A DNA stretch of 64,000 nt from a bacterium (lineage in GTDB: Bacteria > SZUA-182 > SZUA-191 > JAJRXT01), in contig JAJRXT010000129.1 of assembly GCA_024276125.1 (NCBI GenBank), positions 1-64,000 of the forward strand, in the 5' to 3' direction. Position numbers and translations under genes: made by a program. The notes below the pieces were generated by a model, which worked only from the letters and a program-made list of their open reading frames with translations, was not told where the DNA came from and ran no database searches. Shown here in pieces: positions 598 through 62,631 of this stretch (positions are counted from its first letter, which is position 1; each line of letters opens with the position of its first letter).

Positions 598-1755
598 TCA
601 CTCATGTATCACTCGCTGAATAACTACTTTAAAGAGGTTTCCGTTATGGTCGTCTTCAAAATCAATATGAGGATATGCTTTCAACGCACGAATAATGCCG
701 CTTCCCAATCCCCGATAAGGCAGTATTTTGGTAGCATAGGATGCCAAAATCGGATTTCTGATGTTTGAATTTCCTCTTTTGATGTTTTCGATAGTCAGAT
801 TGTTTGGGAGATGTCCCGTACTGATGATTTCCAATCGGTTAGCAAATATAAACAGCCTAACTGGCGCTGAGACAAAATAATCGCGATGAATAAGTGCATT
901 GGCTACCAACTCCTCCAGGGTAATTCTTGGAATCTCCGGCTCCCCAGGGGTATTAACATTTTGTTCTCCCTGAATATGCCGGATGTTTCCAAGAACAAAA
1001 CTCATGCTTTTATGAAAAATATCCCCTAATTTTCCGGTAATATCCTGACTGTCGATGTAGTGTTCCTCATGGATTTCATTGCCGGGAAAAGCTATGGCTT
1101 TGACAATAAAGACAGGTAGTCTTGAACTGGGATTTTTGGCAAAAAGCAAGGCTCCGCTCCTGTTTAATACGCCATCTTTCATTAGGTTCATGTTTTTCAG
1201 TAATTCCGTCAGGGACATATCCTGCTTATCCAGAGATTCACCAAAGTTCCGTTCATAAAAGGTTTTGAAATAGTCAGTGTCCAAGTCAGCTACAGTCAAA
1301 CCGGGAACCGGAATCTCATCGCCATGAATCAAACCTGCGCTCTGATACATTCGCTGAATCTCTTCTCGGGATGTTGCCTTGCGCTTGTCTGATCCACTTT
1401 TGACCCAGATGACCCCGTTTTTGTCCATATAGGGTTTGCTGATACCGTCCGGGGCAACAACCCGCATAACCAGTCCGTCCGGTGCGGTGATGTTTTCCGT
1501 TTGTGGATTGATTGGGGGCCTGACCTGCTGGGATGCCGCATTGGAAACAAGTTGATTCAATCGTCCCATGTCCTTACGTGTCAAACCGGCAAAGGTGCCG
1601 TCATCACTAACACCGATAAATATTGTACCTCCCCCTGAATTGCTGAATGCTACCATTTCCTGAGCCAATGATGTTTCGTTTGTGACATTGGCTTTGAACT
1701 GGTGTTTACTATCTTTACCACGACTGATAATTTCTAGGAGTTCTGTGGTTTCCAT
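598..1755 (-). CDS. AlbA_2 (Schlafen-type) / RecG C-terminal-like ATPase-domain protein
   Basis: This 385-residue protein has an N-terminal AlbA_2 domain (residues about 5-130, with QEMVAFSNSGGGTIFIGVSDDG), the nucleic-acid-binding or nuclease-like domain also found in Schlafens. A C-terminal HATPase_c_4 region (about 255-370) carries EELVANALIHRDYF and GLGSGIIRALKAYPH, as in the COG2865 'RecG-related' family. Known members are called transcriptional regulators or helicase relatives, but function varies. The ATG at 1755 lies inside the 3' end of the upstream PHP-ATPase gene (22-base overlap), with an AGAGGAG ribosome site about 9 bases upstream in that gene. The two genes are therefore almost surely co-translated. 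Pairing with an SMC-like ATPase suggests a defence role; that is inference. Confidence 0.85.
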   Translation of the reverse strand: METTELLEIISRGKDSKHQFKANVTNETSLAQEMVAFSNSGGGTIFIGVSDDGTFAGLTRKDMGRLNQLVSNAASQQVRPPINPQTENITAPDGLVMRVVAPDGISKPYMDKNGVIWVKSGSDKRKATSREEIQRMYQSAGLIHGDEIPVPGLTVADLDTDYFKTFYERNFGESLDKQDMSLTELLKNMNLMKDGVLNRSGALLFAKNPSSRLPVFIVKAIAFPGNEIHEEHYIDSQDITGKLGDIFHKSMSFVLGNIRHIQGEQNVNTPGEPEIPRITLEELVANALIHRDYFVSAPVRLFIFANRLEIISTGHLPNNLTIENIKRGNSNIRNPILASYATKILPYRGLGSGIIRALKAYPHIDFEDDHNGNLFKVVIQRVIHE

Positions 1756-4379
1756 ATTTCGTATCTCCTCTGGCGTTGTCTAAATGCTTCTTCACCGCCT
1801 TCCATAATATCCACGATTTCTTGCTGCAGTTTCGGACAGTCAATGCTGCCGCTTGTCACGTGAACGGTGTCATCAGAATAGGCGCAGGAAATAATTTGTT
1901 CTGCATCGCTAAGCACGGGAAAATTGGCATTATGGGTAGCAAAAATAAATTGCGTCTTTGGCTTGATGCTACATATCAATTTTATTACATCCTCATAAAT
2001 AGTTTGATTGTCCAGATCGTCTTCCGGCTGGTCGATGATAAAAAGATCGTTTTCCTGCTGGCTAAGAACAAAAAGAATTAAAGCTGATGCGCGCTGCCCC
2101 AGCGAATGGTGTTTCAGTTCATTGCCGCGATACTCGATAACAAACCGGTTGGGAACCTGCCATCTCAAAAGAGCAGATAGATTTTCAGTAAAAGATTGCT
2201 CAAAAACCGAAGCCGAAGCAGCAAGCTTGGTTTTGACGTTATCAAATTCTTTGTACATGGCTCCAAAATCGGAAAATTCTTTGATAAGTGATAAAAAAGT
2301 CACCTCCCGGATACGGCTGCCCCTAAAAATATCTTTTATAAAGGTAATGAAGGCGGCCTTGTCACCCTTGAATTCTGCTTTGATTTCAAGCGAAGAATGG
2401 CTGCTGTTAATTTTGTCGAGTTCTGCCTGAATCTCTTTGTATTCATCACGCCAGAGTTCGTTAAGTGCTGCCAGTTCTTGTAACAATTCCTGCTTCAGAC
2501 TTTTATGGACAGATTCCTGCTTATCCAAAGCCTGGAGCATTTGTGACGCTTGCTCCACTGTTTTACGAAGCTCGCGGAATTCATCCAGGCGTATTGCTTG
2601 TAATCCATCTTTTTGCAGTTGTTCAGCCAGTTTTCTTTCAATTTCTGCGAATTCTTCCTTGAGACTATTCTTGAGCTTCTCAAACTCCTCAGCTTTCTTT
2701 TTAAGCTCAACCAGTACCTGCTTACTTGTTGAGAGGGCTTCTCTGATGCTTGCAAAAGATACAATCAACCCGTCATATATGACAAAAAAATCGTCAAAGA
2801 ATTTCTTGCTTTGTTTTGATGTGTAGACACGCTGATTTTTCAAGTCGTCTTCATACTGGTCAATAAAAGATTCCAAATCCTCAAGATAGGATTTGGTAAA
2901 AGAAACAACCTGGGAGCGCTTTATGGAATCTGTATCAAAATCAACCTGCTTTTGCAGTTTTTCTTCCACACTGTGTTCTTTATAAAACCTCAGCCTATAT
3001 TCAGCGTCCAGCTTCTTGTCTTCATATTCATTTTTTCTCTCTTGCATATTGGAGAGTTTTTTCAATCGAGTAACTAGCTCAATAACTTTCCCGCGTTGTG
3101 CCTCGATGCGTGATCGAATCCCGGAAAGCTTCTCGCCGACTAATTTTTCCACCAGATCCTTTTCAAAACCCTCGCCTGTGGCGGATAGGTCTTTCTGTCC
3201 AAAATAAATGGGTTTGTGCAAAATGGTTTCCCGAATGGAGATACCTGGTTGAAGGATATCGTCAATATATACATCTGGTTTTTCCCTGTTTATACGGCGG
3301 ATTTCATATTGCCTGCCCCTTCTGTCAACGGCAGTAATAGTAACTTTGCCTCCACTGCCCAAGACATGGTTGACAAGGCGACTCTTGTACTCTTTGTCGA
3401 GAACCTTTTCCCCGAAAGGAATATCAAGTGTATACCGGATAGCCTCCAGAATGGATGACTTACCGCTTCCGCGGATGCCGATGAGGGTATTGAGTTCCGG
3501 CGCCAGATTGATCGTTTTACCCTTCAGTACGCCGCCGTCAAAAGATACGCTAAGAATGTGAGAATGGGTATAGTGGGGAATTTTCTTGGCAGCTAAGCGG
3601 TTTTTATAGTCAAGCAGAGCATACTTGACTGCTTCAAAGGTGAAATCACCGATTTTCAGATAACAGCGTTTTCCCTGCCCAATTTGATCAATCGCTTTCG
3701 GATCGGAACCTTCCACTTCCGCTGGATAGGCATCGCCAAACCATCCCTGTACTTTTACGCGGCATTTGCGCTCAGACACATCATGGGTTCTGACTTTTTG
3801 AAACGCCAAGCTTCTCTGACGGAAAAATTCATTCTTCCCCAGTTCCTCAAGGCGTCCACCATCCAATTCATGCCACAATCCGCAGTGTACTTCCACATGT
3901 GCAAAAACAAGAAAAAAATCCTTGTGATAGCCTTCCAGTCTTTTGATAGTATCGATTAATCCCGAAGAGCTGCGGCCGTTTTTATTCTCGTATTCTTCCG
4001 GGGTTTTACCTTCAAAAATAATATTCAGAAATTGATTTATATAATACTGACCGTTTGTCAACCATTCATCGTTGAATACAATAAGTGTGTGAATACCATT
4101 AGCTCCGTCATTTACCGACAGTTCCACCCCCGGCAGAAGAAATATCCCCTTTTTCTGTGCAGTTTTCCGTAATGCCTTAAACTCATCGAAATCAAACTTG
4201 TTATGATTGGTAATTACACCAACTTCGATTCCAGCGGACTTGAGCGCATTGATATAGTTTGAATAATAATAGTTTATATCGCTTGAATATGAAAATTCCT
4301 TATCTGCCTTGGTATGCAGGTGAAAATCAGCACGCAGCCAGCGGCTTCCGTTCAAAAAACTATTATTGCAAGATGCCAC
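1734..4379 (-). CDS. PHP-domain plus SMC/ABC-like ATPase, TrlF/Ppl-type
   Basis: The 881-residue protein starts with a PHP phosphoesterase domain: HxH at residues 20-22 (ADFHLHT), then VITNHNKFDF, LLPGVELS and FAHVEVHCG, which would bind metals. Next come a Walker A (IGIRGSGKSS, about residue 300), a long coiled coil (about 420-700), an ABC-type signature (HSLGQRASA), a Walker B (LFIIDQPEDDLDN) and a switch His (ATHNANFP). This layout matches the NCBI 'TrlF family AAA-like ATPase' and, from memory, the one-gene Ppl anti-phage system. The start is a GTG with GAGGA just upstream. The gene is followed by an overlapping AlbA_2 gene. Domain calls are firm; the defence role is inferred. Confidence 0.88.
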   Translation of the reverse strand: MASCNNSFLNGSRWLRADFHLHTKADKEFSYSSDINYYYSNYINALKSAGIEVGVITNHNKFDFDEFKALRKTAQKKGIFLLPGVELSVNDGANGIHTLIVFNDEWLTNGQYYINQFLNIIFEGKTPEEYENKNGRSSSGLIDTIKRLEGYHKDFFLVFAHVEVHCGLWHELDGGRLEELGKNEFFRQRSLAFQKVRTHDVSERKCRVKVQGWFGDAYPAEVEGSDPKAIDQIGQGKRCYLKIGDFTFEAVKYALLDYKNRLAAKKIPHYTHSHILSVSFDGGVLKGKTINLAPELNTLIGIRGSGKSSILEAIRYTLDIPFGEKVLDKEYKSRLVNHVLGSGGKVTITAVDRRGRQYEIRRINREKPDVYIDDILQPGISIRETILHKPIYFGQKDLSATGEGFEKDLVEKLVGEKLSGIRSRIEAQRGKVIELVTRLKKLSNMQERKNEYEDKKLDAEYRLRFYKEHSVEEKLQKQVDFDTDSIKRSQVVSFTKSYLEDLESFIDQYEDDLKNQRVYTSKQSKKFFDDFFVIYDGLIVSFASIREALSTSKQVLVELKKKAEEFEKLKNSLKEEFAEIERKLAEQLQKDGLQAIRLDEFRELRKTVEQASQMLQALDKQESVHKSLKQELLQELAALNELWRDEYKEIQAELDKINSSHSSLEIKAEFKGDKAAFITFIKDIFRGSRIREVTFLSLIKEFSDFGAMYKEFDNVKTKLAASASVFEQSFTENLSALLRWQVPNRFVIEYRGNELKHHSLGQRASALILFVLSQQENDLFIIDQPEDDLDNQTIYEDVIKLICSIKPKTQFIFATHNANFPVLSDAEQIISCAYSDDTVHVTSGSIDCPKLQQEIVDIMEGGEEAFRQRQRRYEIWKPQNS

Positions 4380-4411
4380 AGTTATTCCTCTTCTATTCTG
4401 ATTACCGCTAC

Positions 4412-4420
4412 ATTATACCA
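4412..4420 (-). promoter_or_regulatory. Extended -10 promoter for the PHP-ATPase operon
   Basis: On the minus strand the sequence reads TGGTATAAT, an extended -10 element with a perfect TATAAT, about 33 bases before the GTG start. I see no good -35, which extended -10 promoters do not need. Confidence 0.5.
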
Positions 4421-50579: not shown

Positions 50580-52610
50580 ATGAAAAGAACAGCGCTTCTG
50601 GGTTTATGTTTGTTGAGCCTATTGGCCTTTCTACCTGCCGCAGCCAGCGCAGCTTCTCCATCTGTTTCCTGGGTTCGTACCCATGATAGCGGTATAGATG
50701 ACTGGGCGGCCAGCGGCGGCGTAGTTGTGGATAAGGCGGGCGATATTGTGGTGGTTGGTCATGAGGGGATGATTGCTGATCTGCGTATTATAAAATACGA
50801 TACAGACGGTAATGAGAAATGGAATAGGCTATTTGACGGCGGCGGGGATGATTGGGCGACCGCTTCAGGGACTGTGTTAATCGATTCTGCGAATAATGTA
50901 GTAATTTCAGGTACCACTTGCGGCCCTGCTCCTGATTGGTTGAATTCTTATTTTGTGGTTAAATACGATGCAGATGGTAATTTATTGTGGAGTAATGTTC
51001 AATATTTAGGTAATTATGCCTGGGCCTGGGCTGCCAGCCTTGATGCCAATGATGATGTAGTGTTGTTAGGTTCAGCGTATAATGGGGCTGATTATGATTT
51101 TATGACCATGAAGTTTAGTTCAGCGGGCGCCTTTTTGTGGTCACAAACTTTTGACAGCGCTGCTGATGATTGGTGCGGCTGGGGCGTTGATATTGATTCG
51201 GCTAATAATATTTTGGTTACCGGTTCATTTTTTAATGGCGCCAATACTGATATATGTACTATAAAATATGACCCAAGCGGCGCTCTTGTTTGGGCGCAGG
51301 CATATGACAGCGGTAGTAAGGACGGCGGCTTTACGGTTACGGTTGATTCAATGGATAATGTTATTGTAGCCGGTTATTTTGATAATTCAGTGACTTCTGA
51401 CGTAAGACTTTTAAAATACAATTCCGCTGGAGCCTTGCTCTGGGAGCTTTCATATGATGATGGGGTCAATGAATATTTATATGAGGTGAAAACCGATTCG
51501 GCTGACCGGATAGTGCTTGCCTGCAGTTCTGATAATGGACTGAACAAGGATTATAGCGTGATAAAGTATACCGCTGGCGGCAGTATTTTGTGGAGCAAGA
51601 TTTATGATGGCGGTACAAACGAAAGATTCTGGAATCTGGCTATAGATGCTAGAAATTACATAGTAATTACCGGTGAGTCAATAAATACTGTTACCGGCAA
51701 TGCAGATATTTGTACTGTAATGTATGATCCCGGCGGCGGAGAGTGCTGGGTTGCTACCGTTGATAAAGGCGTTGATGATTATGGTACTGGAGTAGCCATT
51801 GATCAATATGCTAATGTTATTGTTTTAGGCTCTACGTTTAATGGCACGGATTACGATTTTTATATTTCAAAATACGATAGAATCTATGTGGAAGCGGAAC
51901 AAGTGTTCACTAAGGATGTAACAGGCGCTTGGAATGCTGTAGTTGCACCCGATGATACGGTAAAGGTTAATCTGGCAATAACCATACATGGTAATCCGGC
52001 TGAAGAGTATAGTTTTCAGCTTCGCACCTTTTTTGTGGATGCGCTTGGAACACAAAGCCTGATGCGTTCAAAAACATATGGAGGCTATGCTCCAGGAACA
52101 TATTATGTGGCCTTTGATTGCACAATACCGGCGGCAATCGCTACCGGTAAGGGAGAGATTCTAAATGTAGTTGCCTTGGGTCATGCTGATTGTGTGTTTG
52201 ACAGAAAAAAAACATCCTGTTACGTGCATTATCCCAGCGGTAGTATGTTGACGGCTGGCAGTATAGATCAGGTATACACGGAAGATGCGACGCCGCATTG
52301 GAGCGCTATTTTTGCGCCTGGCGATAATCTTAGCGTTAATCTGGCGGTTAATATAGAGGGTGACCCTTCAAAGTTATATGACTTTAATATCCGTACATTT
52401 CTTACTGATGCAGACGGGGTTGAAAGTTTGCTGGCAAATCGTACTTATGGGGGCGCTACACCAGGGACATTTTATCTTTCCAGGGATGCTGTAATGCCTG
52501 CTGCGGCAGCCAGCGGTCGGGCTACTTTAAGTCATGTACTTTTTGTTGCTGAGCAAGGCGGTCCGATTGCCGTTCGTGATCGGCTGGTTAATTATGTAAA
52601 TGTAGAGTAA
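50580..52610 (+). CDS. Secreted SBBP-repeat propeller protein with two C-terminal modules
   Basis: A 676-residue exported protein (signal peptide to PAAASAASPS). Residues about 28-430 are eight or so tandem repeats of about 50 residues of the SBBP type (WVRTHDSGIDDWAASGGVVVDKAGDIVVVG, ...YDPSGALVWAQAYDSGSKDGGF), probably a beta-propeller. The last 240 residues are two diverged copies of the 116-residue module. The double module is unique here. AGGAGG gives strong initiation. Extracellular adhesion or matrix role is likely; no enzyme motif seen. Confidence 0.82.
   Translation: MKRTALLGLCLLSLLAFLPAAASAASPSVSWVRTHDSGIDDWAASGGVVVDKAGDIVVVGHEGMIADLRIIKYDTDGNEKWNRLFDGGGDDWATASGTVLIDSANNVVISGTTCGPAPDWLNSYFVVKYDADGNLLWSNVQYLGNYAWAWAASLDANDDVVLLGSAYNGADYDFMTMKFSSAGAFLWSQTFDSAADDWCGWGVDIDSANNILVTGSFFNGANTDICTIKYDPSGALVWAQAYDSGSKDGGFTVTVDSMDNVIVAGYFDNSVTSDVRLLKYNSAGALLWELSYDDGVNEYLYEVKTDSADRIVLACSSDNGLNKDYSVIKYTAGGSILWSKIYDGGTNERFWNLAIDARNYIVITGESINTVTGNADICTVMYDPGGGECWVATVDKGVDDYGTGVAIDQYANVIVLGSTFNGTDYDFYISKYDRIYVEAEQVFTKDVTGAWNAVVAPDDTVKVNLAITIHGNPAEEYSFQLRTFFVDALGTQSLMRSKTYGGYAPGTYYVAFDCTIPAAIATGKGEILNVVALGHADCVFDRKKTSCYVHYPSGSMLTAGSIDQVYTEDATPHWSAIFAPGDNLSVNLAVNIEGDPSKLYDFNIRTFLTDADGVESLLANRTYGGATPGTFYLSRDAVMPAAAASGRATLSHVLFVAEQGGPIAVRDRLVNYVNVE
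51888..52235 (+). other. 116-residue repeated module, copy 2
   Basis: VEAEQVFTKDVTGAW ... VNLAITIHGNPAEEYSF ... RTFFVDALGTQSLM ... YGGYAPGTYYVAF ... CYVHYP. One of the two most diverged copies; it lacks the LLAQG and LAGYVN end, having LGHADCVFDRKK and CYVHY instead. Confidence 0.75.
52257..52607 (+). other. 116-residue repeated module, copy 3
   Basis: GSIDQVYTEDATPHW ... RTFLTDADGVESLL ... YGGATPGTFYLS ... RDRLVNYVNVE, 117 residues, at the protein's C-terminus. It pairs with copy 2 by sharing TYGG where others have YRNY, so the two probably arose by internal duplication. Confidence 0.85.
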
Positions 52611-52914
52611 ATATTTTGTTTGATACGGAAGTTAGTTTGATTTCTGTAGGGGCGGGTTTCAAACCCGCCCTTTGTATCTTGAAATTTGTGTTTTATTTTT
52701 CGGGGTGAGACATCCCTAAAAATATGACTTTTTATAACTGTCATTCTGAGGGAGGCGCAAGCCGACCGAAGAATCTGCTTGCATATGGGAGTAGATTCTT
52801 CACTCCGTTGCGTTCAGAATGACAGTTCTCTTAAGTCAACGGCATTGGCGGCTAAAGGCGGGTAATCCGCACCCTAGCTACGCTAAATTTTATTATTTTA
52901 TCAGGTAATCGTAT
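52611..52914. repeat. Repeat-filled gap before iorA
   Basis: Has GTAGGGGCGGGTTTCAAACCCGCCC (52646-52670) and a GTCATTCTGAGGGAGGCGCAAGCC repeat (about 52739-52823) closing CTCTTAAGTCAACGGCATTGG. No gene. Confidence 0.75.
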
Positions 52915-54645
52915 ATGAAAAAATTGTTGTCCGGCAATGAAGCTATTGCCCGCGGGAGTTATGAGGCCGGAGTTAGGTTTGCGACTGCTTATCACGGTAC
53001 TCCCAGCACTGAAATATTGGAAGAATTGGCAAAATATGATCAAGTTTGCGCTGAATGGTCGATTAATGAAAAGGTAGCCTTGGAAAAAGGAATAGGCGCC
53101 GGTTTGGGCGGAGCAAGGAGTTTGGTTGCCATGAAGCACGTAGGGTTGAATGTAGCAAGCGATCCATTTATGATTTTAGCTTATACCGGCGTGTGCGCGG
53201 GTATTGTCATTGTAAGCGCTGATGACCCTTATATGCACAGCTCTCAAAGCGAGCAGGATAACCGGAATTATGCCAAGTTTGCTAAAGCGCCTATGTTAGA
53301 GCCGGCGGACAGCCAGGAGGCTAAAGATTTTACCAAACTGGCTTTTGATTTAAGCGAAAAATTCGATACTCCGGTTATGCTTAGGACTACTACCAGGATT
53401 TCTCATTCAAAATCCGTGGTAGAGCTTGGCGAAAGACATGAAGTAATCCACCCGCCGTTTGATAAGGATGTGGCTAAATATGTGATGATTCCGGTTTTTG
53501 CCCGTAAAAGGCGCCTTATTATGGAAAATCGTATGCAGCAGATAGCCGGTTTAGTTGAAACGATTGGGTGTAACAGGGTAGAATATAATAATCGGCGCTT
53601 GGGTATAATATGCAGTGGAATTGTCTATCTGTATGTAAAAGAGGTAGTACCGCAGGCCTCTATACTTAAGTTGGGTGTAACTTATCCATTGCCGCAAAAT
53701 AAGATCAAAGAATTTTGTGCATCGGTGGATAAAGTCTATGTTATAGAAGAGCTTGATCCATTTTTGGAAGAGCAGATAAGGGCTATGGGATGCTCAGTTA
53801 TCGGAAAAGAAGCGATACCCTCAGTGGGCGAGCTTAATCCTGATATAATAGCGGATGCTTTGGGGATAAGGCGTAAGGCTGCCGATGTTTCGGATAAATC
53901 ACACTTACCGGCCAGACCGCCTAGTTTTTGTCCCGGCTGTGCTTATCGCGGGGTGTTTTATTTCTTAAAGAAATTAAAAGTTAGGGTAATGGGCGATATT
54001 GGCTGCTATACTTTGGGAGCGCTGCCTCCTTTAGAGGCGATTGACGCTGTTTTTTGTATGGGGGCGAGCATTGGCTGCGCTTTGGGTTTTGAAAAGGCGG
54101 TGAGTGATCCCGATGTAAAAGCGGTGGCTGTAATTGGCGATTCCACTTTTTTTCATTCTGGTATTACAGCTCTTATTGATGTAATTTACAATAAGGGAGT
54201 TGGTACGGTTATTGTTTTGGATAATCATACTACTGCTATGACCGGTTTTCAGGATCATCCGGGCACGGGCAAGACTCTTAAAAGAGAGGGTTCTCAGGCG
54301 GTTGATTTAGTCAAATTGGGTGAGGCGGTCGGTTTTAAAAGGGTGATAACATTTGACCCATATGATATGGATACTGTTTATAAGGTATTAAAAGAGGAAA
54401 TTAAAAGGGAAGAACCCTCGCTTATTATTTCAAAACGAAGCTGTTTATTGCTGGATAAAAAAAGGAAATATCAAAAGCGTAAAATAGATGCGGCAAAGTG
54501 TAATGGCTGCGGGGTTTGTCTTGGGCTGGGGTGTCCGGCTTTGGGTGAAACAGATAATAAAAAAGTAAAAATAGAACCTGTAATGTGTAATGGCTGTCCT
54601 GTTTGTGAATATGTATGCCGGCAGGGGGCTATTGAGAGTGCTTAA
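52915..54645 (+). CDS. iorA: Indolepyruvate ferredoxin oxidoreductase, alpha subunit
   Basis: The 576-residue protein has a pyrimidine-binding domain with GNEAIARGSYEAGVRFATAYHGTPSTEI and SADDPYMHSSQSEQDNR, a TPP domain with FCPGCAYRGVFYFLKK, GDIGCYTLGALPPLEAIDAVFCMGASIGCALGF and GDSTFFHSGITALIDVIYN, and a C-terminal 2[4Fe-4S] ferredoxin part (CNGCGVCLGLGCPAL, CNGCPVCEYVC). With IorB it oxidatively decarboxylates aryl pyruvates to aryl-acetyl-CoA, reducing ferredoxin, in anaerobic amino-acid metabolism. Slightly shorter than archaeal IorA but all motifs are present. Confidence 0.95.
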   Translation: MKKLLSGNEAIARGSYEAGVRFATAYHGTPSTEILEELAKYDQVCAEWSINEKVALEKGIGAGLGGARSLVAMKHVGLNVASDPFMILAYTGVCAGIVIVSADDPYMHSSQSEQDNRNYAKFAKAPMLEPADSQEAKDFTKLAFDLSEKFDTPVMLRTTTRISHSKSVVELGERHEVIHPPFDKDVAKYVMIPVFARKRRLIMENRMQQIAGLVETIGCNRVEYNNRRLGIICSGIVYLYVKEVVPQASILKLGVTYPLPQNKIKEFCASVDKVYVIEELDPFLEEQIRAMGCSVIGKEAIPSVGELNPDIIADALGIRRKAADVSDKSHLPARPPSFCPGCAYRGVFYFLKKLKVRVMGDIGCYTLGALPPLEAIDAVFCMGASIGCALGFEKAVSDPDVKAVAVIGDSTFFHSGITALIDVIYNKGVGTVIVLDNHTTAMTGFQDHPGTGKTLKREGSQAVDLVKLGEAVGFKRVITFDPYDMDTVYKVLKEEIKREEPSLIISKRSCLLLDKKRKYQKRKIDAAKCNGCGVCLGLGCPALGETDNKKVKIEPVMCNGCPVCEYVCRQGAIESA

Positions 54646-55234
54646 AAAAAAGAATTATAAAATGGATACAAAAAGTGTTTCTATCGTTGGTATAGGCGGT
54701 CAGGGTATTATTATGGCCAGCGAAATAGTTGCTTGCGCTTTGATGCTCGCTGGTTTTGACGTTAAAAAAAATGAAATAAAGGGTATGTCGCAGATGGGCG
54801 GCAGCGTTAGCTCTTGTCTTAGATTTGGTCAAAAGGTGTATTCTCCGCTGCCTCAAAACGGGCAGACTGATATTTTATTGTCTTTTGAACTAATTGAAGC
54901 CTGCCGCAGCATAGACTGCTTAAGAGCGGATGCTCCGGCGATTATAAATAATTTTAAGCTTAATCCTATGGGCAGCTCCAATTGTGAATTGGATTTAATT
55001 GGGCAGTTAAGGCAGAGCGGGCGGAATATAATTTTGGTGGATGGTATAAAGCTGGCCTTAGAAGCGGGGAATATTAAGGCGGTAAATGTGGCCTTATTGG
55101 GAGTTTTGGCTAATTATTTATCATTAGAAAAAGATGTTTGGCTTCAGGCTGTTGCACAATTGGCGCCTAAAAAAACTTATAAGATAAATGAAAAAGCTTT
55201 TATGCTGGGTTATCAGAATGACAGTTGTGTCTAA
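54638..55234 (+). CDS. iorB: Indolepyruvate ferredoxin oxidoreductase, beta subunit
   Basis: The gamma-type domain of 2-oxoacid oxidoreductases: SVSIVGIGGQGIIMASEIVACALMLAGFDVKKNEIKGMSQMGGSVSSCLRFG, LLSFELIEACRS. Partner of IorA. I start it at GTG 54638 (199 residues), ten bases after a CAGGGGG site and overlapping iorA by eight bases; ATG 54662 (191 residues) is an alternative without a ribosome site. The ORF-track start at 54590 lies well inside iorA. Confidence 0.9.
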   Translation: MLKKKNYKMDTKSVSIVGIGGQGIIMASEIVACALMLAGFDVKKNEIKGMSQMGGSVSSCLRFGQKVYSPLPQNGQTDILLSFELIEACRSIDCLRADAPAIINNFKLNPMGSSNCELDLIGQLRQSGRNIILVDGIKLALEAGNIKAVNVALLGVLANYLSLEKDVWLQAVAQLAPKKTYKINEKAFMLGYQNDSCV

Positions 55235-55407
55235 GTAGATGCGGGTTTTTAAACCCGCCCCATGGGGCTGAGCTTTTTGGCCGGCGGCTACAATAGCCCG
55301 CACCGGCAGGCGCGCTAATTTGAAAAAACAAGTAATAACTAATTAGTTGAGTTGTATGATAACTTTAGTGGTAAAAATAAAAAGGTCAAAAAATAGTTAC
55401 TTTTTTC

Positions 55408-55436
55408 TTGCAAAATGCTTGTCCAGCCTATATTAT
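55408..55436 (+). promoter_or_regulatory. Sigma70-like promoter
   Basis: TTGCAA, 17-base spacer, TATTAT (5 of 6 to the -10). It lies about 540 bases before the next gene, so its target is uncertain; the repeat element would be in the leader. Confidence 0.35.
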
Positions 55437-55691
55437 ATTAATATAAAGTAATATATTCTTTTCCAGAAAAAATCAGAGCCTAAAATTGAAGGAAGTTTCT
55501 TTCCTCTTTTGCTTTAATTGGAAAGAAGGGAATACTCTTGTCAGCCGCTCTTGTGGTGATAAGTGTTCCTTGATTAACTTGTTGTATCGGCTGTTTATTT
55601 TAATAACGTGAGTTCGACATAAAATTTGTTGAATTCATTAAACTGTAGGGGCGGCGGCTTATCCCCGCCCATGATTTGGGAGGGGATAAAC

Positions 55692-55852
55692 TCCAATGCC
55701 ATTAAGTTAAGGAAATTGTCGTTCTTAAACGAAACGAAGTGGAGTGAAGAATCTGTATGCGTATGCGAGTAGATTCTTCGGCCTCCGGCCTCAGAATGAC
55801 AGGCTAAGAAGAGCTTTTCATTATAGTATAAAGCTTAAGTTAACGGCATTGG
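55692..55852. mobile_element. Complete element of the GTCATTCTGA family
   Basis: 161 bases with terminal repeats CCAATGCCATTAAGTTAAGG and CTTAAGTTAACGGCATTGG, enclosing TGTCGTTCTTAAACGAAACG ... GAAGAATCT ... AGATTCTTC ... AGAATGACAGG. Second full-length copy, in line with 42621-42780. Confidence 0.8.
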
Positions 55853-55980
55853 GGATAAACTCCTCCCCTACAGTAAATTTATATCAATTGATTGATATAT
55901 AAAACCTTTTAGTGTTCTTATGTCGATCTCACGTTTTAATCAGCAGCCTTTAAGTTGTTTGTGTAGGGGAGGTGAGTTTG

Positions 55981-56460
55981 TTGTTTTCTAGTGGTAAGAA
56001 GTTATTTGTTTTTTTTGTGTGCGTAGGTTGTTTACTCGTATTTACTAAAGGCTCTTTTGCAGAAGATAAATCTGAAACTGATCAGAATAAAGGCGGTGAA
56101 GTTGTTTATCAGGCCTGCCTGCCGGGTTCTGTTTATAATGTTTCTTTAAGTCGCGGCGGTCGATTTATAATGCAGGATTGTTTTCATTTTGAAATGGACG
56201 GGACTTTTTTCAAACAGTCGCATACTTGTAGCGCTTCTACTTATTTGATGTGTAATGATATTGCAGGAATAAAATGTTATTTTACAGCGCAGTTGTTGTT
56301 TCCGGGTACTACCCTGATTGTTGACGGGACTGTTTCGGCTGATTGTCAGAGCATTGAAGGCACTGTCTTGGACGCTGCCAGAAACAGGGTTTTTGATTTT
56401 ACCGGCGTAAAAAGTGTGAACTGCACTTTGGGGCAAACCGGCATAGATACTTGTGACTAA
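55981..56460 (+). CDS. Secreted Cys-containing protein of unknown function
   Basis: About 159 residues with a signal peptide (KKLFVFFVCVGCLLVFTKGSFAE) and a mature part with seven Cys (YQACLPGS, MQDCFHFEMDG, HTCSAS, YLMCND, IKCYFTAQ, ADCQS, VNCTLGQTG and a C-terminal TCD), likely disulphide bonded. I recognise no family; the beta-rich pattern and 'VDGTVSADCQSIEGTVLDAARN' suggest a small beta-sandwich. The GTG at 55972 of the ORF track overlaps the GGGGAGG ribosome site, so TTG 55981 (or 55978) fits better. No 116-residue module. Confidence 0.65.
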   Translation: MFSSGKKLFVFFVCVGCLLVFTKGSFAEDKSETDQNKGGEVVYQACLPGSVYNVSLSRGGRFIMQDCFHFEMDGTFFKQSHTCSASTYLMCNDIAGIKCYFTAQLLFPGTTLIVDGTVSADCQSIEGTVLDAARNRVFDFTGVKSVNCTLGQTGIDTCD

Positions 56461-56826
56461 GATTTGTTGAATATGTTTCGGTATGTCCCATGCCGACTTT
56501 TTATAACTGTCATTCTGAGGGAGGCGCAAGCCGACCGAAGAATCTGCTTGGATATGCTAGTAGATTCTTCGCTTCAGAATGACAAACTTAAAACCTATTA
56601 TAGAAACACACCTAGCGCTTAAGCAATTGTTTTGGGGTGAGACACCCAGAAACATAACCCGCAGCAGAAGGTGCGATATGTTAATTGTAGAGGAAATTCC
56701 ATTTTATTGTAGATGCCGACTTTTATATCGGCCTGTCAAAGGTACAACAAACTTTAAGACCGGCGTAAGCGATACTCGACCTAAAGTTCGGCATCTACAG
56801 AAATTCGCGCCAAAGGTGTGCTAATT
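56461..56826. repeat. Repeat-filled gap
   Basis: GTCATTCTGAGGGAGGCGCAAGCC repeat (about 56507-56583), followed by ACTTAAAACCTATTATAGAAAC (also at 18.42 kb), an imperfect GTTTTGGGGTGAGACACCCAGAAAC palindrome, and GATGCCGACTTTTATATCGGC ... CGACCTAAAGTTCGGCATC. The ORFs here are repeat translations. Confidence 0.7.
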
Positions 56827-56855
56827 TAATTAGGAGGTGATCCTCGGGCTAATTA
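56827..56855 (+). promoter_or_regulatory. Hairpin enclosing a perfect Shine-Dalgarno sequence
   Basis: TAATTAG + GAGG, loop TGAT, CCTC + GGG bulge + CTAATTA: an 11-pair stem. It contains AGGAGGTGAT, a full complement to the usual 16S 3' end, but no ORF with a good start follows; the next gene has its own AGGAGG at 56909. Either a leader peptide or structural RNA element. Purpose unknown. Confidence 0.4.
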
Positions 56856-56921
56856 GGATTTGTATTTATTGGGAAGTGGTTTTAATTTAAATGTAGTTTT
56901 TTTTTAACAGGAGGCATTATT

Positions 56922-58739
56922 TTGAAAAATAAATCTTTAAAATTTGCGGTGATGTCAATTGCTGCTGCGATGTTATTAAGCAGTTCTCTGGCATTTGCCG
57001 GCGGGGCGGCCTCAGACAGCGCCGGTCCCGGCGCCGGCGGGGCGCGTATAAACGATAATACAGCGGCTGGTACAGTTACTTATACCGGTCAGAACACGCC
57101 TATTCCGGCTACTGTAGGGATGACTTACAATACGGATACCGGTTCTTTGTGGCTTTTTGAACATTCTACTCAAAATGTTTGGGAGTATAATTTGGCTGGA
57201 TTGCCTACGGGAGGCGGTTTTACTTGGCCTTATGCAGAAGCTGATCCGGCTCATGGTTTAACCTTTAATCCGGTAACCGGTACATTTTTTGCCTCAAGCG
57301 CCAGTAGTGCAACGGTAACAGAATCGGATTATGCCGGAAACCCGCTTAGCCTTTTCCAAACCAGCAGATCAGATCAGACCGGTATTGCCGCTAATCATAA
57401 TACCGGCAATCTGTATGTTACCCAATACGCCGCTGGTACTATTGAAGAATATACCTCAGCCGGCGTCTTGGCGGGTACATTTGCCGCTATGACCACCCCT
57501 CTGGGGATGCACTATGATCCTTGTACAGATCATCTGTGTGCTGTACATAACAATGGAACAGATTTGATTGAAATGGACCTTACAGGCACTATTTTGGCTA
57601 CGTATAATCTGCCGGCTATAATTGGAGTGTCCGTAAGAATCCGCGGTTTGGCCTTTGATTATGACAATGGTTTCTTTTACGCAGCAAATGAGTTGGACGG
57701 CGTCTTATATCAGCTTAAGTATGATGTATCCTGCGGCGGCGGTATTCCTGCCGGTGTTGATATTGATCAGCTCTATACTTTTGATGGAACCGGCGCATGG
57801 AGTGCGGAGTTTGCTCCCGGCGATGTGATAACCGTAAATGAAGCTATTACTATTGTAGGCGATCCTGCTCAGGTTTATGATATGCAGGTGCGTTATTACT
57901 TTACTGATGCCGCTGGTAACAATTTCTTGTTAGGCAAACAATTATATCGTAATTATAGTCCCGGTACTGTGTATGTATCCTTAACCGGCGCTGTACCTGC
58001 AAATGCAGCTCCCGGCAGAGGCGCTGTAAGAAACGCCGCTCTGCTGGCACAAGGTCCTGTTTTGCTTGACAGAGGTACTTTGGCCGGATATGTGAACATT
58101 AGCGGAGCCGGCGGAGCCTATGGATTTGTTGAGGACTTTAATGACGGCGCAGCCGATAATTGGGTAGACGACGGCAGCGGACGTTGGAGTGTGACTAATG
58201 AGTATGTAATGAGTGGAAACAGCTCTCTTACTTGGGGAACTAGCTCTTACAATGACACTTACAGTGACTTTGTTTATGAAGTGAGCTTACAAAAGACCGC
58301 TGGTGACGGGACATCCATGGGGTTGTTGTTTAGGGAAAATGACTACTTCGGCGCCGCTGGGGATGGCTATGGTTTTTGGATTACTAGCACTGGAGACTGT
58401 AGCGTTTGGAAACACGTAGGCGGCGTTTCCAGCACCCTAGTGCCTTGGACTGCGTCAGCATTTATAAATCAGGGTCTGGGCGCTTGGAATACACTCGCAG
58501 TGGATGTCAATGGCAGTACCTTGACTTTTTACATTAATGGTAACCTGTTGACCTCTCTTGTGGACAGCTCTTTTGCTTCCGGTAAGGCTGGCGTGGCCGT
58601 CTATGATAGTTCACCGGATGTGGTGCATTATGATAATGCCTCATTGACCTGCGGCGGCGGTCCTGCTGCGGTTGCTCCGGTTGCGGTTACTCCTATTGAT
58701 CCGGTTGCTGCTGGTATTCAGGAACACATTTCCGAGTAG
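56922..58739 (+). CDS. Secreted propeller-module-LamG-like surface protein
   Basis: The 605-residue exported protein (signal MKNKSLKFAVMSIAAAMLLSSSLAFAGG) starts at TTG, with AGGAGG seven bases upstream. Residues about 45-275 are a propeller of NHL/SMP-30 style repeats (MTYNTDTGSLWLFEHST, GIAANHNTGNLYVTQY, GLAFDYDNGFFYAANELDGVLYQL). Then comes a 116-residue module and a LamG/concanavalin-like domain (EDFNDGAADNWVDDGSGRWSV ... VVHYDNASL). A Pro/Ala/Val-rich tail follows. No catalytic site seen. The last two domains also occur in the next two genes. Confidence 0.8.
   Translation: MKNKSLKFAVMSIAAAMLLSSSLAFAGGAASDSAGPGAGGARINDNTAAGTVTYTGQNTPIPATVGMTYNTDTGSLWLFEHSTQNVWEYNLAGLPTGGGFTWPYAEADPAHGLTFNPVTGTFFASSASSATVTESDYAGNPLSLFQTSRSDQTGIAANHNTGNLYVTQYAAGTIEEYTSAGVLAGTFAAMTTPLGMHYDPCTDHLCAVHNNGTDLIEMDLTGTILATYNLPAIIGVSVRIRGLAFDYDNGFFYAANELDGVLYQLKYDVSCGGGIPAGVDIDQLYTFDGTGAWSAEFAPGDVITVNEAITIVGDPAQVYDMQVRYYFTDAAGNNFLLGKQLYRNYSPGTVYVSLTGAVPANAAPGRGAVRNAALLAQGPVLLDRGTLAGYVNISGAGGAYGFVEDFNDGAADNWVDDGSGRWSVTNEYVMSGNSSLTWGTSSYNDTYSDFVYEVSLQKTAGDGTSMGLLFRENDYFGAAGDGYGFWITSTGDCSVWKHVGGVSSTLVPWTASAFINQGLGAWNTLAVDVNGSTLTFYINGNLLTSLVDSSFASGKAGVAVYDSSPDVVHYDNASLTCGGGPAAVAPVAVTPIDPVAAGIQEHISE
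57753..58103 (+). other. 116-residue repeated module, copy 4
   Basis: GVDIDQLYTFDGTGAW ... VNEAITIVGDPAQVYDM ... RYYFTDAAGNNFLLGK ... LLAQGPVLLDRGTLAGYVNIS. Bases 57834-57949 are identical to 62353-62468 in copy 7. Confidence 0.92.
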
Positions 58740-58775
58740 TTTTGGTTGTTGTTAATTAGTTTGATATGGGGCGGG

Positions 58776-58810
58776 AGAGCCGGCGGTAAAGTTATTTCCG
58801 GCTCTCTTTT
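58776..58810 (+). terminator. Rho-independent terminator
   Basis: Stem AGAGCCGG (58776-58783) and CCGGCTCT (58798-58805) with a 14-base loop, followed by CTTTTA. It sits 37 bases after the stop of the propeller protein and before the next gene, so the surface genes are separate units. Confidence 0.75.
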
Positions 58811-58841
58811 ACCATATTTACTTGAGGAGACCAGGGCCGAA

Positions 58842-59996
58842 ATGAGAAAAATGCTTTATATCGCAATTAGCGCATTTGTAGTTTTAGGGGTAATTAGCAG
58901 CGCTTATGCCGTAAGTTCTGACGCTGTGGTTTTTGAAGGCGATAGCGGACAGGTTGTAGTACAAGATGCGCCTGATATGCTTTCGATTGATGCAATAGTT
59001 GCACCCGAAATCAATATTGACGAAATATATACCTTAGATGCAGCCGGCGCTTGGAGTGCGGAATTTGATCCCGGCGATGAGTTAACCGTAAACGAAGCGA
59101 TTACAATTGCAGGCGATCCGGCTCAGGTTTATGATATGCAGGTGCGTTATTACTTTACAGATGCAGCCGGTAATGATTTCTTGTTAGGCAAACAATTATA
59201 TCGTAATTATGCTCCCGGTACTGTGTACGTATCCTTAACCGGCGCTGTACCGGTAAATGCCGTCCCCGGCAGGGGCGCTGTGAGAAACGCCGCCTTATTG
59301 GCTCAAGGCGCTACTTTACTTGATAGAGGTACTTTAGCCGGTTATATTAATGTTGGCGATGGATGCGGATTTACCGAGGATTTTAATGACGGCGCTGCCG
59401 ATAACTGGGTTGATGACGGCAGCGGACGCTGGGGTGTTGCCGGCGGCGAGTATGTGATGACGGGAACCGGCGCTATATGGGCTAATACAAGCTATATGGA
59501 AACCGGTAATCAGGATTTTGCCGATTTTAGCTATCAGGTTGATATAAATAAAATATCCGGTAATGAATTATCTTCTATGGGGGTTATTTTCAGATCAGAT
59601 GGCGCAGCTCCTAAAGCCGGCAATGGTTATGCTTTTTACATTACTGCATACGGTGATTATTCCTTGTGGGAATATACTGAGGGAGCGGTAACAGCCCTTA
59701 TTCCATGGACAAATTCTCCGTTGATCAATACTGGAATAGGCGCTGTAAATACCGTAAAGGCAACTGCCTGCGGAGCCAATATCGAGCTTTATGTTAATGG
59801 TTCGTATTTAAACGGAGTAACTAATACCGCTCATGCTTTCGGTCTTGTCGGTCTTCAGGTTTATGACGCATCAATGGATGTGGTTTTGTTTGATAATGCG
59901 TCTTTGGTTTGCGCATGTTCCATGCCGTATGCCGGCGCTAAAGTAAAAAGCGGCGCTGTAAATGCTGCTGTTGGTGATGACAGCTCATCTCGGTAG
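58842..59996 (+). CDS. Secreted module plus LamG-like surface protein
   Basis: From ATG 58842, 384 residues: signal peptide RKMLYIAISAFVVLGVISSAYA, a short linker, the 116-residue module (about 56-171), and a LamG-like beta-sandwich (about 178-360; EDFNDGAADNWVDDGSGRWGV, SSMGVIFRSDGAAPKAGNGYAFYI, LYVNGSYLNG). The tail is Ala/Ser rich. Probably a small glycan-binding matrix protein. The ORF-track start at 58746 includes the terminator and is wrong. Closest relative is the next gene (60277). Confidence 0.82.
   Translation: MRKMLYIAISAFVVLGVISSAYAVSSDAVVFEGDSGQVVVQDAPDMLSIDAIVAPEINIDEIYTLDAAGAWSAEFDPGDELTVNEAITIAGDPAQVYDMQVRYYFTDAAGNDFLLGKQLYRNYAPGTVYVSLTGAVPVNAVPGRGAVRNAALLAQGATLLDRGTLAGYINVGDGCGFTEDFNDGAADNWVDDGSGRWGVAGGEYVMTGTGAIWANTSYMETGNQDFADFSYQVDINKISGNELSSMGVIFRSDGAAPKAGNGYAFYITAYGDYSLWEYTEGAVTALIPWTNSPLINTGIGAVNTVKATACGANIELYVNGSYLNGVTNTAHAFGLVGLQVYDASMDVVLFDNASLVCACSMPYAGAKVKSGAVNAAVGDDSSSR
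59007..59354 (+). other. 116-residue repeated module, copy 5
   Basis: EINIDEIYTLDAAGAW ... AITIAGDPAQVYDM ... LLAQGATLLDRGTLAGYINV. Long identical runs with copies 4 and 7 (for example CAGGTTTATGATATGCAGG). Confidence 0.92.
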
Positions 59997-60128
59997 TTAT
60001 AGTGAGTTAGACTTATTAAACGCAGGATATTATGAAGTGTTTGGGTGATGGTTGCCTTTTATGATTATTATTATCTGTAATGGCTATTGAGTTCTCTTGC
60101 GAAACCAAAGCTATTTAATTTTATTAGC

Positions 60129-60212
60129 TGTCATTCTGAACGAAACGAAGTGGAGTGAAGAAGCTGCCCACGTATGCTCACAGATCCTTCGGCCTACGGC
60201 CTCAGAATGACA
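60129..60212. repeat. GTCATTCTGA-family repeat
   Basis: 84 bases, TGTCATTCTGAACGAAACG ... GGCCTCAGAATGACA, in the gap between two paralogous surface-protein genes (59997-60276). Slightly decayed (GAAGAAGCT, AGATCCTTC). Confidence 0.8.
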
Positions 60213-60276
60213 GAATGTAATTATTTTCGGAGTTAACTCTAGTAGCGCATTATCTATCAAGGAGACTAAGACTAAA

Positions 60277-61422
60277 ATGAGAAAAATGCTTTATATGGCA
60301 GTTAGCGCATTTGTAGTTTTAGGAGTTATGAGTAGCGCATATGCTGGAATGGATGTAGAAGGCGAGGTTGGAAAAATAGTTATTAAAGAGGCAGCCGAAG
60401 CGGGAGCGCTGATTGTGCCGGAGGTTAAAATTGATCAACTTTATACTCAGGATGCTGGCGGTAATTGGAGCGTAGGTTTTAGCGCGGCAGATGAGATAAC
60501 CATAAATGAAATAATTACCATTACAGGCGATCCAGGCCGGCTTTATAATTTAAAGGTTTGCTATTTCTTTACGGATTCAGCGGGTAATGATTATTTATTA
60601 GGGAAACAAGTATACCGCAATTATCCCCCCGGCGCTGTTTATGTACATCTGAGTACGCCAGTACCGCTTGGCGTGACTAGTTGTAGGGGAACGCTTAGGA
60701 ATGCCGCTGTTTTAAGTTACGGCGATGTTGTGCTTGATAAGGGGACTTTAGCGGCTAAGATAAAGATTGCCGGATGTTGTCCGGGCGGGTTTAATGAAGA
60801 TTTTAATGACGGTATTGCCGATAACTGGATTGATGATGCAACAGGACGCTGGGATGCAGCCGGCGGAGAGTATGTAATGACCGGTAATAGTTCAGGATGG
60901 GCGAATACAAGCTATAAGCAGTTTGGTAATCAGGATTTTGCTGATTTTAGTTATCAGGTTGATGTAAAAAAGACGGCTGGATATGAGTCTGATTCAATGG
61001 GGATTATTTTTAGAGCAGACGGGGCGGCTCCTAAGGCTGCCAATGCTTATGCCTTCTACATTAGCGCAGATGGTGAGTATTCCTTATGGAAATACACTAA
61101 CGGGACTTTTTCTAACTTGATTCCATGGACAGTGTCGCCATTATTAAATATTGGAATTGGCGCCGTTAATAATATCAGGGTATCTGCCAGCGGAGCTAAT
61201 ATATCTCTTTATGTGAATGGTTCATATTTGGACGGGGCGGTTGATTCTACTCATACCTCTGGCATGGTTGGGTTTCAGTTATATGAAGCAACAAACGATG
61301 TAGTGGTCTATGATAACGCAGTGTTGATATGCGGGGCTCCGCCCATGCCTGGCGGCAGGGCTGGTGAGCCTAGCGGTAGTACATTGATTGCTAGAGGGGG
61401 TGGTGATAGCGGTTGTAGGTAA
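60277..61422 (+). CDS. Secreted module plus LamG-like surface protein (paralogue)
   Basis: A 381-residue paralogue of the previous gene with nearly the same signal (RKMLYMAVSAFVVLGVMSSAYA). The module spans 49-164 (DQLYTQDAGGNW ... KGTLAAKIKIAG, the end altered), followed by a LamG-like domain (EDFNDGIADNWIDDATGRWDA, SDSMGIIFRADGAAPKAANAYAFYI). The tail is Gly/Ser rich with a late Cys. AAGGAGA precedes the ATG. Tandem duplication followed by divergence is evident. Ligand unknown. Confidence 0.82.
   Translation: MRKMLYMAVSAFVVLGVMSSAYAGMDVEGEVGKIVIKEAAEAGALIVPEVKIDQLYTQDAGGNWSVGFSAADEITINEIITITGDPGRLYNLKVCYFFTDSAGNDYLLGKQVYRNYPPGAVYVHLSTPVPLGVTSCRGTLRNAAVLSYGDVVLDKGTLAAKIKIAGCCPGGFNEDFNDGIADNWIDDATGRWDAAGGEYVMTGNSSGWANTSYKQFGNQDFADFSYQVDVKKTAGYESDSMGIIFRADGAAPKAANAYAFYISADGEYSLWKYTNGTFSNLIPWTVSPLLNIGIGAVNNIRVSASGANISLYVNGSYLDGAVDSTHTSGMVGFQLYEATNDVVVYDNAVLICGAPPMPGGRAGEPSGSTLIARGGGDSGCR
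60421..60768 (+). other. 116-residue repeated module, copy 6
   Basis: EVKIDQLYTQDAGGNW ... ITITGDPGRLYNL ... FFTDSAGNDYLLGK ... GTLAAKIKI. Exactly 116 residues. The end motif LAAKIKI replaces LAGYVNI. Confidence 0.9.
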
Positions 61423-61617
61423 TTTTTAAGTAGTTATAGTTTAGTTGTACAGTTTTTTTAAAGTTGTAGCTATGCGGGGTTTTAAACCCGCATATTGGCC
61501 GACCTAAAGGCTGGTTTTGGGGTAAGATATCCCCAAGCATAAAAGATTAGGCTGCTACAATGGATGGTTCGCACTAAATGTGCGGTATGTTTTTTATTGT
61601 TTTATGGAGGTTTTATT

Positions 61618-62631
61618 ATGAAGATGAAAAAATTATTGGGTATGGCGGTTAGCGTATTTGCCGTTTTCGGTCTTTTAAGCAGCGCATATGCCGGAAATTT
61701 TGATGGAGCAGCGGTTGAAGGTGATACCCAGCGGGCGGTTATAGAAGAGACGCCGGACATAATTGCGCCTCCGCCGGGCGCTACAATTATTAATTTTGAT
61801 GATACTGTTGAACCGTGTGTGTTTGCTTCTACTGTAGCGCTTAGGGCTAAATATGCTGCGCAGGGCGTTACATTCAGCGGCGCTGCACCCTTAGACGGCG
61901 GCGCTATCTTAGATGAATGCGGTAATTTTGGCGTTAGCGGTCACAGCTCTCCCAATTTTTTAGCCATTAATTGCGGGTCAAGCCTGTCAGACGGCGGTAT
62001 TCCTCAGAATCCAGAATATTTAGATTTTAATCCGCCGGTTGATTATGTACAGATTAATGCGGGTTCCGGTTCAGGCGCCGGTACTACTGTTATCATGAAT
62101 GCCTATGATGCAGCCGGTAATTTGATTGGTTCTGACAGCTTAATTATGGCTAGCGTTCTGGATACTTTAAGTATTGCCGCAGCCGGTATATCCAGAGTGG
62201 AGATTACCTCTGCTGCCTGTATTCTTGTATTGGATGATTTGGCATTTACTTCAGGCTCTGTAGTTGTGCCGCAAGTAGATATTGATCAATTATACACTGA
62301 AGATGCCAATGGGCAATGGAATGTGATTTTTGCTCCGGGAAATACTATTGAAGTAAATGAAGCTATTACTATTGTAGGCGATCCTGCTCAGGTTTATGAT
62401 ATGCAGGTGCGTTATTACTTTACTGATGCCGCTGGTAACAATTTCTTGTTAGGCAAACAATTATATCGCGATTATGCGCCGGGCACTTATTATGTAGCTT
62501 TATCTGCGATAGTACCGGCAGGCGCCGCAGCCGGCAGGGCTGCCGTAAGAAACGCCGCTTTGTTGGCGCAAGGCGCTACCTTGCTTGACAGGGGTACATT
62601 GGCTGGCTATGTAAATATTGTTACTCCATAG
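61618..62631 (+). CDS. Secreted beta-sandwich protein with C-terminal module
   Basis: From ATG 61618, 337 residues: signal peptide KMKKLLGMAVSVFAVFGLLSSAYAG, a beta domain (about 45-215; ATIINFDDTVEPCVF ... YAAQGVTFSG ... YVQINAGSGSGAGTTVIMNAYDAAGNLIG ... RVEITS) of the kind seen in exported 'choice-of-anchor' proteins, then the module at the C-terminus. GGAGG is seven bases before the start; the ORF-track start at 61564 lacks one. Its module DNA is partly identical to that of the gene at 56922 while the N-terminal domain is unrelated. Confidence 0.78.
   Translation: MKMKKLLGMAVSVFAVFGLLSSAYAGNFDGAAVEGDTQRAVIEETPDIIAPPPGATIINFDDTVEPCVFASTVALRAKYAAQGVTFSGAAPLDGGAILDECGNFGVSGHSSPNFLAINCGSSLSDGGIPQNPEYLDFNPPVDYVQINAGSGSGAGTTVIMNAYDAAGNLIGSDSLIMASVLDTLSIAAAGISRVEITSAACILVLDDLAFTSGSVVVPQVDIDQLYTEDANGQWNVIFAPGNTIEVNEAITIVGDPAQVYDMQVRYYFTDAAGNNFLLGKQLYRDYAPGTYYVALSAIVPAGAAAGRAAVRNAALLAQGATLLDRGTLAGYVNIVTP
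62272..62619 (+). other. 116-residue repeated module, copy 7
   Basis: QVDIDQLYTEDANGQW ... AITIVGDPAQVYDM ... NNFLLGKQLYRDYAPGTYYVAL ... LLDRGTLAGYVNI, then VTP and stop. It shares a 116-base identity block with copy 4. Confidence 0.92.

Follow-up and report, generated by a model that had tools for sequence, protein, structure and literature searches.

A window of 64,000 nucleotides (positions 1 to 64,000 of contig JAJRXT010000129.1, assembly GCA_024276125.1, from a bacterium of the GTDB lineage SZUA-182; SZUA-191; JAJRXT01) carries two overlapping genes at 598-4379 that a sequence-only reading had proposed as a candidate two-gene defence system, a PHP-SMC-like ATPase paired with an AlbA_2 protein. 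Both open reading frames (ORFs) were confirmed, encoding proteins of 881 and 385 amino acids (aa) and overlapping by 22 bp. They proved to be trlF and trlG, and the suggestion that the pair might define an undescribed variant was set aside, because it is already published as part of trlR-trlF-trlG, the "temperature restricting locus" (TRL) of Photorhabdus laumondii (PMC7554251). The operon and the TrlF family are, thus, already known; nothing on the pair under other names was found in the literature beyond this publication, and neither a defence reading nor a report that the whole pair is repeatedly nested in restriction-modification (RM) or BREX operons was found there. It is proposed that the window pair is a horizontally acquired TrlF-TrlG module, equivalent to TRL without trlR, and that it most likely serves as a defence system of the guard type that arrests growth, a reading to which a probability of roughly 0.55 is assigned. 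The genes are as follows.

1734 to 4379, minus strand: TrlF-family gene (PHP plus SMC/Rad50-like ATPase), 881 aa, GTG start (ORF reading, NF045780 profile, AlphaFold2 model, Foldseek)
598 to 1755, minus strand: TrlG gene (Schlafen-core AlbA_2 plus HATPase_c_4), 385 aa, ATG start (ORF reading, Pfam, AlphaFold2 model)
1734 to 1755, minus strand: trlF/trlG overlap, 22 bp

Window TrlF matches the NCBIfam TrlF model NF045780 with 577 bits across residues 10-874 (cut-off 350), which places it in the family and bears out the earlier call of a TrlF-type ATPase with a PHP domain. Pfam detects SMC_N (E=3.4e-8) and AAA_21 (E=3.9e-9), and gives a weak PHP match under the cut-off (E=0.0024). The TrlF family profile matches the PHP-type structure 2anu (TM0559) in addition to SMC/Rad50 structures, and the AlphaFold2 model, with a predicted local distance difference test (pLDDT) score of 86.5, retrieves SMC heads, MukB, Wadjet JetC and Rad50 in Foldseek. 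The seven PHP metal ligands are conserved in the window and nearly invariant among paired TrlF proteins, and the usual last PHP histidine is replaced by K228 in the window protein, as it is by lysine in most paired TrlF.

3690 to 4343, minus strand: PHP domain, approximately aa 13-230, with H20, H22, H59, E86, H97, H161 and D226 (conservation in 70 paired TrlF)
3453 to 3479, minus strand: Walker A motif GIRGSGKSS, aa 301-309; G304, G306, K307 and S308 invariant in paired TrlF
2400 to 3167, minus strand: long coiled-coil arm, aa about 405-660, splitting the ATPase (AlphaFold2 model)
2091 to 2105, minus strand: ABC signature SLGQR, aa 759-763; S, G and Q invariant in paired TrlF
2016 to 2042, minus strand: Walker B / D-loop region FIIDQPEDD, aa 780-788; DQPE invariant
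1929 to 1937, minus strand: H-loop THN, aa 815-817; invariant in paired TrlF

The description of the partner as an AlbA_2-HATPase_c_4 protein was likewise sound. Just 5' of the HATPase_c_4 domain, TrlG carries an N-box-like motif, ExxxNAxxHRDY (aa 282-293), in which E282, N286, H290 and R291 are invariant. A profile built from 45 TrlG relatives matches SLFN12, SLFN14, SLFN8, SLFN5 and SLFN11 (human SLFN12/14 in the PDB), and Foldseek searches with the AlphaFold2 model of window TrlG (pLDDT 89.5) returned 3lmm, SLFN14 (5.9e-6), SLFN11, SLFN5, SLFN13 and the tRNA nuclease domain of SAMD9, with histidine kinases as weaker matches. TrlG has the Schlafen-core (AlbA_2) fold. A second AlbA_2 gene lies elsewhere in the same genome (contig C71:4509-4901).

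1375 to 1713, minus strand: SLFN_AlbA_2 domain of TrlG, aa 15-127 (Pfam E=9.5e-21)
673 to 867, minus strand: HATPase_c_4 (GHKL-like) domain of TrlG, aa 297-361 (Pfam E=1.3e-11)

The arrangement that defines the TRL pair, trlF followed directly by a trlG with AlbA_2 and HATPase_c_4 domains, is present in the window, and the architecture of the two TrlG proteins is the same (AlbA_2 at 14-128 and HATPase_c_4 at 298-365 in TRL, at 15-127 and 297-361 in the window). Gene order and overlap also agree with the TRL of Yersinia ruckeri pYR3 (L257), which the same publication names and to which window TrlF is 55% and window TrlG about 63% identical. The loci differ in host phylum, in their neighbours, in the lysine at position 14 of window TrlG, and in trlR (HTH_73), which lies upstream in TRL and is missing from the window, where the 361-bp gap between trlF and fur holds no ORF of ≥80 aa on the minus strand. 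In Photorhabdus, TRL transcription goes up with temperature, and numerous independent changes in trlG (point mutations, stops and insertions of an insertion sequence, IS) restored growth at 36 °C, as did deletion of the operon; the text makes no mention of phage (PMC7554251). One substitution, S16N in Photorhabdus TrlG, falls within the same GEDS motif as in window TrlG only if the numbering agrees there.

The tight pairing suggested from the sequence was confirmed by a survey that combined 36 loci from public genomes with loci from samples of three phyla and larger surrounding stretches. In a tree of 108 TrlF proteins, the window clade comprises 44 members, two of which are cut by contig ends; trlG lies directly downstream of trlF in 38 of the 42 testable members and is lacking in four. 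Across the whole family, the corresponding figure is 70/105, and a deep branch of 16 TrlF proteins has no member with TrlG. The two genes overlap in 54 of the 67 pairs that are adjacent, most often by 8, 13, 19 or 22 bp (usually 13-22 bp within the window clade), which makes the overlap a trait of the family and not a matter of chance. Shine-Dalgarno-like 4-mers precede trlG in 61/69 relatives, and AGAGGAG precedes the window gene. The translational coupling that had been predicted is upheld. Protein distances of TrlF and TrlG are strongly correlated (Mantel r = 0.97 for 64 pairs, 0/999 permutations; 0.94 within the window clade).

Strict obligate pairing was rejected, as TrlG relatives occur without TrlF and deep TrlF branches occur without TrlG. 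Among TrlG relatives in the phylum sample of genome G042, TrlF lies upstream at three loci and a TrlF-like tail at one, five have neither and one is cut by the contig end; the relatives lacking TrlF indicate that TrlG is common to other contexts too. At the locus with the tail (L250:1163-1513), just a TrlF-like C-terminal tail stands directly 5' of an intact TrlG, and the upstream protein has a HATPase_c_4-like stretch. The E. coli plasmid pKGu016_1 (L202, 4848-7469) carries a TrlF without TrlG, its DNA about 68% alike in parts, with vapBC and a broken HEPN nuclease as its neighbours; more than 100 E. coli records have partial matches of a similar kind.

Across genomes, the pair is associated with defence genes. 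PADLOC and Pfam searches on the 100 nearest neighbours gave PglX, HsdS, N6_Mtase, ResIII and PglZ. Local profiles place no fewer than 21 of the 62 non-redundant paired loci next to genes of BREX (13) or of type I RM (8); the figure is a minimum, since many contigs stop close by, and its HsdM/HsdS-type labels are uncertain, as these profiles cross-match PglX and other methylases. Additional seeds labelled MT_ were left out of this count, several not being methylases (one GMP synthase-like, one ABC transporter-like). The whole pair occupies an internal position in several gene orders: HTH-HsdR-TrlF-TrlG-HsdS-AAA-HsdM for type I RM, with a helix-turn-helix (HTH) gene first, on E. coli/Klebsiella plasmids and a Tn7-like element; Mod-TrlF-TrlG-Res for type III RM; PglX-TrlF-TrlG-PglZ-BrxL for BREX 1; and PglXI-TrlF-TrlG-BrxHI/BrxHII-PglZ-BrxA for BREX 3. 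The two nearest relatives of the window pair, L002 and L003, are of the BREX 3 type (PADLOC identified the upstream part in L002 and the downstream part in L003). In one type III case (L173), the pair stands between matches to Mod (672 aa) and Res (874 aa), and gene order at L175 is similar. At six loci (L187, L190, L193, L016, L034 and L140), a TrlF without TrlG is next to PglZ/BrxL genes of BREX or to genes of type I RM, and TrlF may, therefore, be a guest of such operons on its own as well.

The distribution of the pair is patchy and mobile. TrlF scored above the cut-off in 28/399, 27/395 and 16/399 genomes of three phyla, in none of 14 control genomes and in none of eight relatives of the host from the same class; relatives at 72-79% identity belong to phyla other than that of the host. 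The pair is found in 38 of 5,426 E. coli genomes, and TrlF is present on conjugative plasmids. On the chromosome of E. coli AR_0137 (L203, 2721-19802), a Tn7-like TnsABCD element at yhiN carries the HTH-HsdR-TrlF-TrlG-HsdS-AAA-HsdM cluster, and near-identical copies occur on IncC plasmids. A contig classed as viral in IMG/VR (L205) also carries a pair (42% and 39% identity). These patterns bear on the proposal of the Photorhabdus authors, that the operon is a temperature or stress regulator of growth with a role in synchronising the life cycle and restraining IS elements, and not in defence. Induction of TRL by a temperature shift, its requirement for arrest at 36 °C, and the position of the window pair beside fur/feo and not defence genes all fit that proposal, which is nonetheless judged improbable in view of the recurrent RM/BREX nesting, the plasmid and Tn7-like cargo and the patchy presence; a regulator of one host's life cycle would not be expected to travel so.

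The guard reading draws together the trlG genetics, the domains of both proteins and their guest position in modification-based defences, and is the most economical account of them. TrlF, through its SMC/Rad50-like ATPase and PHP domain, would sense a signal made by an intruder, for which DNA ends, collapse of the nucleotide pool or inhibition of a modification-based defence are candidates. Once triggered, TrlF would release TrlG, with its Schlafen core and GHKL-type nucleotide-binding domain, and TrlG would then halt growth, with cleavage of tRNA or rRNA as the probable means. We infer that the module has a role in defence, that TrlF is its sensor, that RNA is the target and that heat sensitivity is auto-activation. 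A broader form of the reading is offered tentatively: TrlF-TrlG may be a portable fail-safe, repeatedly inserted into type I RM, type III RM, BREX 1 and BREX 3 operons, in which a PHP-SMC sensor of sabotage or DNA ends unleashes a separate Schlafen effector, and the temperature limit of Photorhabdus may be a case of heat wrongly setting off this immune toxin.

Precedents for an ATPase and a tRNA nuclease working beside RM or BREX systems, namely PrrC, RloC and PARIS, lend further support to the guard model. In PrrC and RloC, an ABC/Rad50-like ATPase is coupled to an RNase that stops translation; prrC resides within type I RM operons and PrrC is released upon inhibition of the RM enzyme, while RloC is activated by DNA breaks. 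In both, the anticodon nuclease is a HEPN-type domain of the ATPase protein itself. No HEPN-type anticodon nuclease was found in TrlF by Pfam and PADLOC scans; the window partner is, instead, a separate Schlafen-core protein, and the window ATPase also carries a PHP domain. PARIS resembles the pair in having two components, an ABC-type ATPase sensor (AriA) and a tRNA nuclease (AriB), and differs in that AriB is a Toprim nuclease and AriA is of the OLD type, with no PHP domain described. Membership in PARIS was rejected, as AriA models reach 24 bits on TrlF and the partner is not a Toprim protein. For Menshen (NsnABC), the multi-gene system suggested for comparison from the sequence, the PADLOC scan gave no match to an Nsn model, although it was not checked that the scanned set includes one. 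PARIS has been reported to adjoin BREX, and bacterial Schlafen RNases adjoin BREX in 1,017 taxa (PMC12839542). TrlG shares its Schlafen and histidine-kinase-like make-up with the RNases of that study that combine Schlafen, a minimal histidine kinase and a winged HTH domain, and relatives of TrlG are found within BREX operons, much as Schlafen RNases accompany BREX there; the main text contains no match for PHP, histidinol or TrlF (PMC12839542).

The single-gene Ppl system, to which the sequence-only reading had likened the ATPase, also joins PHP and an SMC/ABC-type ATPase in one protein, whereas window TrlF is coupled to TrlG, as are most members of its clade. Ppl models match the C-terminal ATPase half of TrlF (130 bits in PADLOC, 144.5 bits in NCBIfam), and membership was rejected because the latter score falls far below the NF042955 cut-off of 1000. 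An alternative modelled on Ppl, in which TrlF is the effector, a PHP exonuclease gated by its SMC-like ATPase and by nucleoside triphosphate levels, and TrlG a DNA/RNA-binding regulator or nucleotide sensor, would account for the near-invariance of the PHP metal ligands, the loosely conserved nuclease triad of TrlG and the many TrlF proteins without TrlG. It is considered unlikely, because the mutations that confer temperature tolerance hit trlG and none hit trlF, a sign that TrlG is what arrests growth; moreover, the last PHP ligand is lysine in most paired TrlF, and the Ppl score is low.

Several observations weigh against the guard reading. Data on protection against phages were found for none of the TrlF-TrlG members. 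Photorhabdus TRL lies between polA and dsbA and was interpreted as a temperature response, and selection for temperature tolerance yielded no trlF mutations, so that trlF need not be required (PMC7554251). TrlG relatives with 44-55% identity are found without TrlF. None of the 41 other ORFs of the window matches PADLOC, and a local defence island was, therefore, rejected; a split BREX operon elsewhere in the genome was rejected as well, as the genome has no PglZ. Association with defence genes is, thus, a property of the family and not of the window copy, and the question raised from the sequence, whether the pair keeps company with defence or housekeeping genes, has a divided answer: relatives reside in RM/BREX operons, and the window pair stands beside Fur and FeoA/B. 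Furthermore, the E/E/D triad is not strictly kept across the TrlG family, and RNase activity of window TrlG is doubtful.

The last two points rest on the following comparison. Schlafen nucleases use an E/E/D catalytic triad, with residues as in SLFN11/13/14, and position 14 of TrlG aligns with the first catalytic glutamate (TESTHVEFK in SLFN14). At the corresponding positions of TrlG, E14 is found in 69/70 proteins, E19 in 27/70 with Q19 in the other 43/70, and D51 in 48/71, with K or N in the remainder; the window protein, with K14, Q19 and D51, lacks the triad. Its RNase activity appears doubtful because the triad is loosely kept in the family and because of K14, and for the family as a whole such activity is putative. 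Two codons of the window gene depart from otherwise invariant columns, a maximum, within the set of 44, that L004 shares.

1714 to 1716, minus strand: TrlG codon 14, AAA (Lys), E14K; Glu in 69/69 other TrlG that have a residue aligned at this position
817 to 819, minus strand: TrlG codon 313, ACG (Thr), P313T; Pro in 70/71 TrlG

These changes may reflect either inactivation or an assembly error. If they kill TrlG activity, the window module would be an impaired or decaying relic, expressed as a harmless pair, an idea compatible with the guard reading of the family. The near-universal Glu and Pro at these positions and the isolation of the module from any RM or BREX partner speak for a relic. 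It is, however, somewhat unlikely, given that both ORFs are full length and coupled, that L004 has two such deviations as well, that a single-base assembly error is possible in a metagenome, and that the ratio of nonsynonymous to synonymous changes per site (pN/pS) against relatives is about 0.13-0.20, with synonymous sites saturated, which indicates long-term purifying selection on the window genes. The comparison of TrlG with L003 was excluded from the latter analysis (out of frame).

Signals that may govern expression of the pair were read from the sequence.

4412 to 4420, minus strand: candidate extended -10 element TGGTATAAT, 32 bp 5' of the trlF GTG (putative function)
4385 to 4391, minus strand: Shine-Dalgarno sequence AGAGGAA ahead of the trlF GTG (sequence reading)
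1765 to 1771, minus strand: Shine-Dalgarno sequence AGAGGAG, within trlF, 9 nt 5' of the trlG ATG (sequence reading)

The claim that the genes are driven by their own extended -10 promoter was only partly sustained. The motif is present, and motifs of the TGGTATAAT type are as common in shuffled sequence as in the window (7 observed vs 5.9 in shuffles), so that a trlF promoter at this site remains a plausible candidate. The pair lies at the left end of its contig, in a genome assembly of 2.98 Mb and 159 contigs. To its right are fur and then feoA/feoB; to its left, a gene with tetratricopeptide (TPR) repeats reaches near the contig end, and a 102-bp tandem repeat at 198-419 is DNA of this gene. 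Farther along the window, at 50580-62631, several adjacent genes share a repeated domain (VDIDQLYTxDAxGxW...RGTLAGYVNI) and apparently encode secreted or surface proteins.

The TRL operon has so far been known just as a temperature brake of one insect pathogen, without a mechanism. That TrlF-TrlG is placed as a guest within RM and BREX operons suggests a testable one, guard-type immunity through a Schlafen effector, and this reading ties a PHP-SMC sensor to the Schlafen family of animal antiviral immunity. If the module is immune in function, it is a guard of the ATPase sensor plus RNase type whose parts are combined in a new way, and the failure of some Photorhabdus to grow at 36 °C would become a question of immune auto-activation. 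Its presence on IncC plasmids and E. coli chromosomes makes the module amenable to study in laboratory strains.

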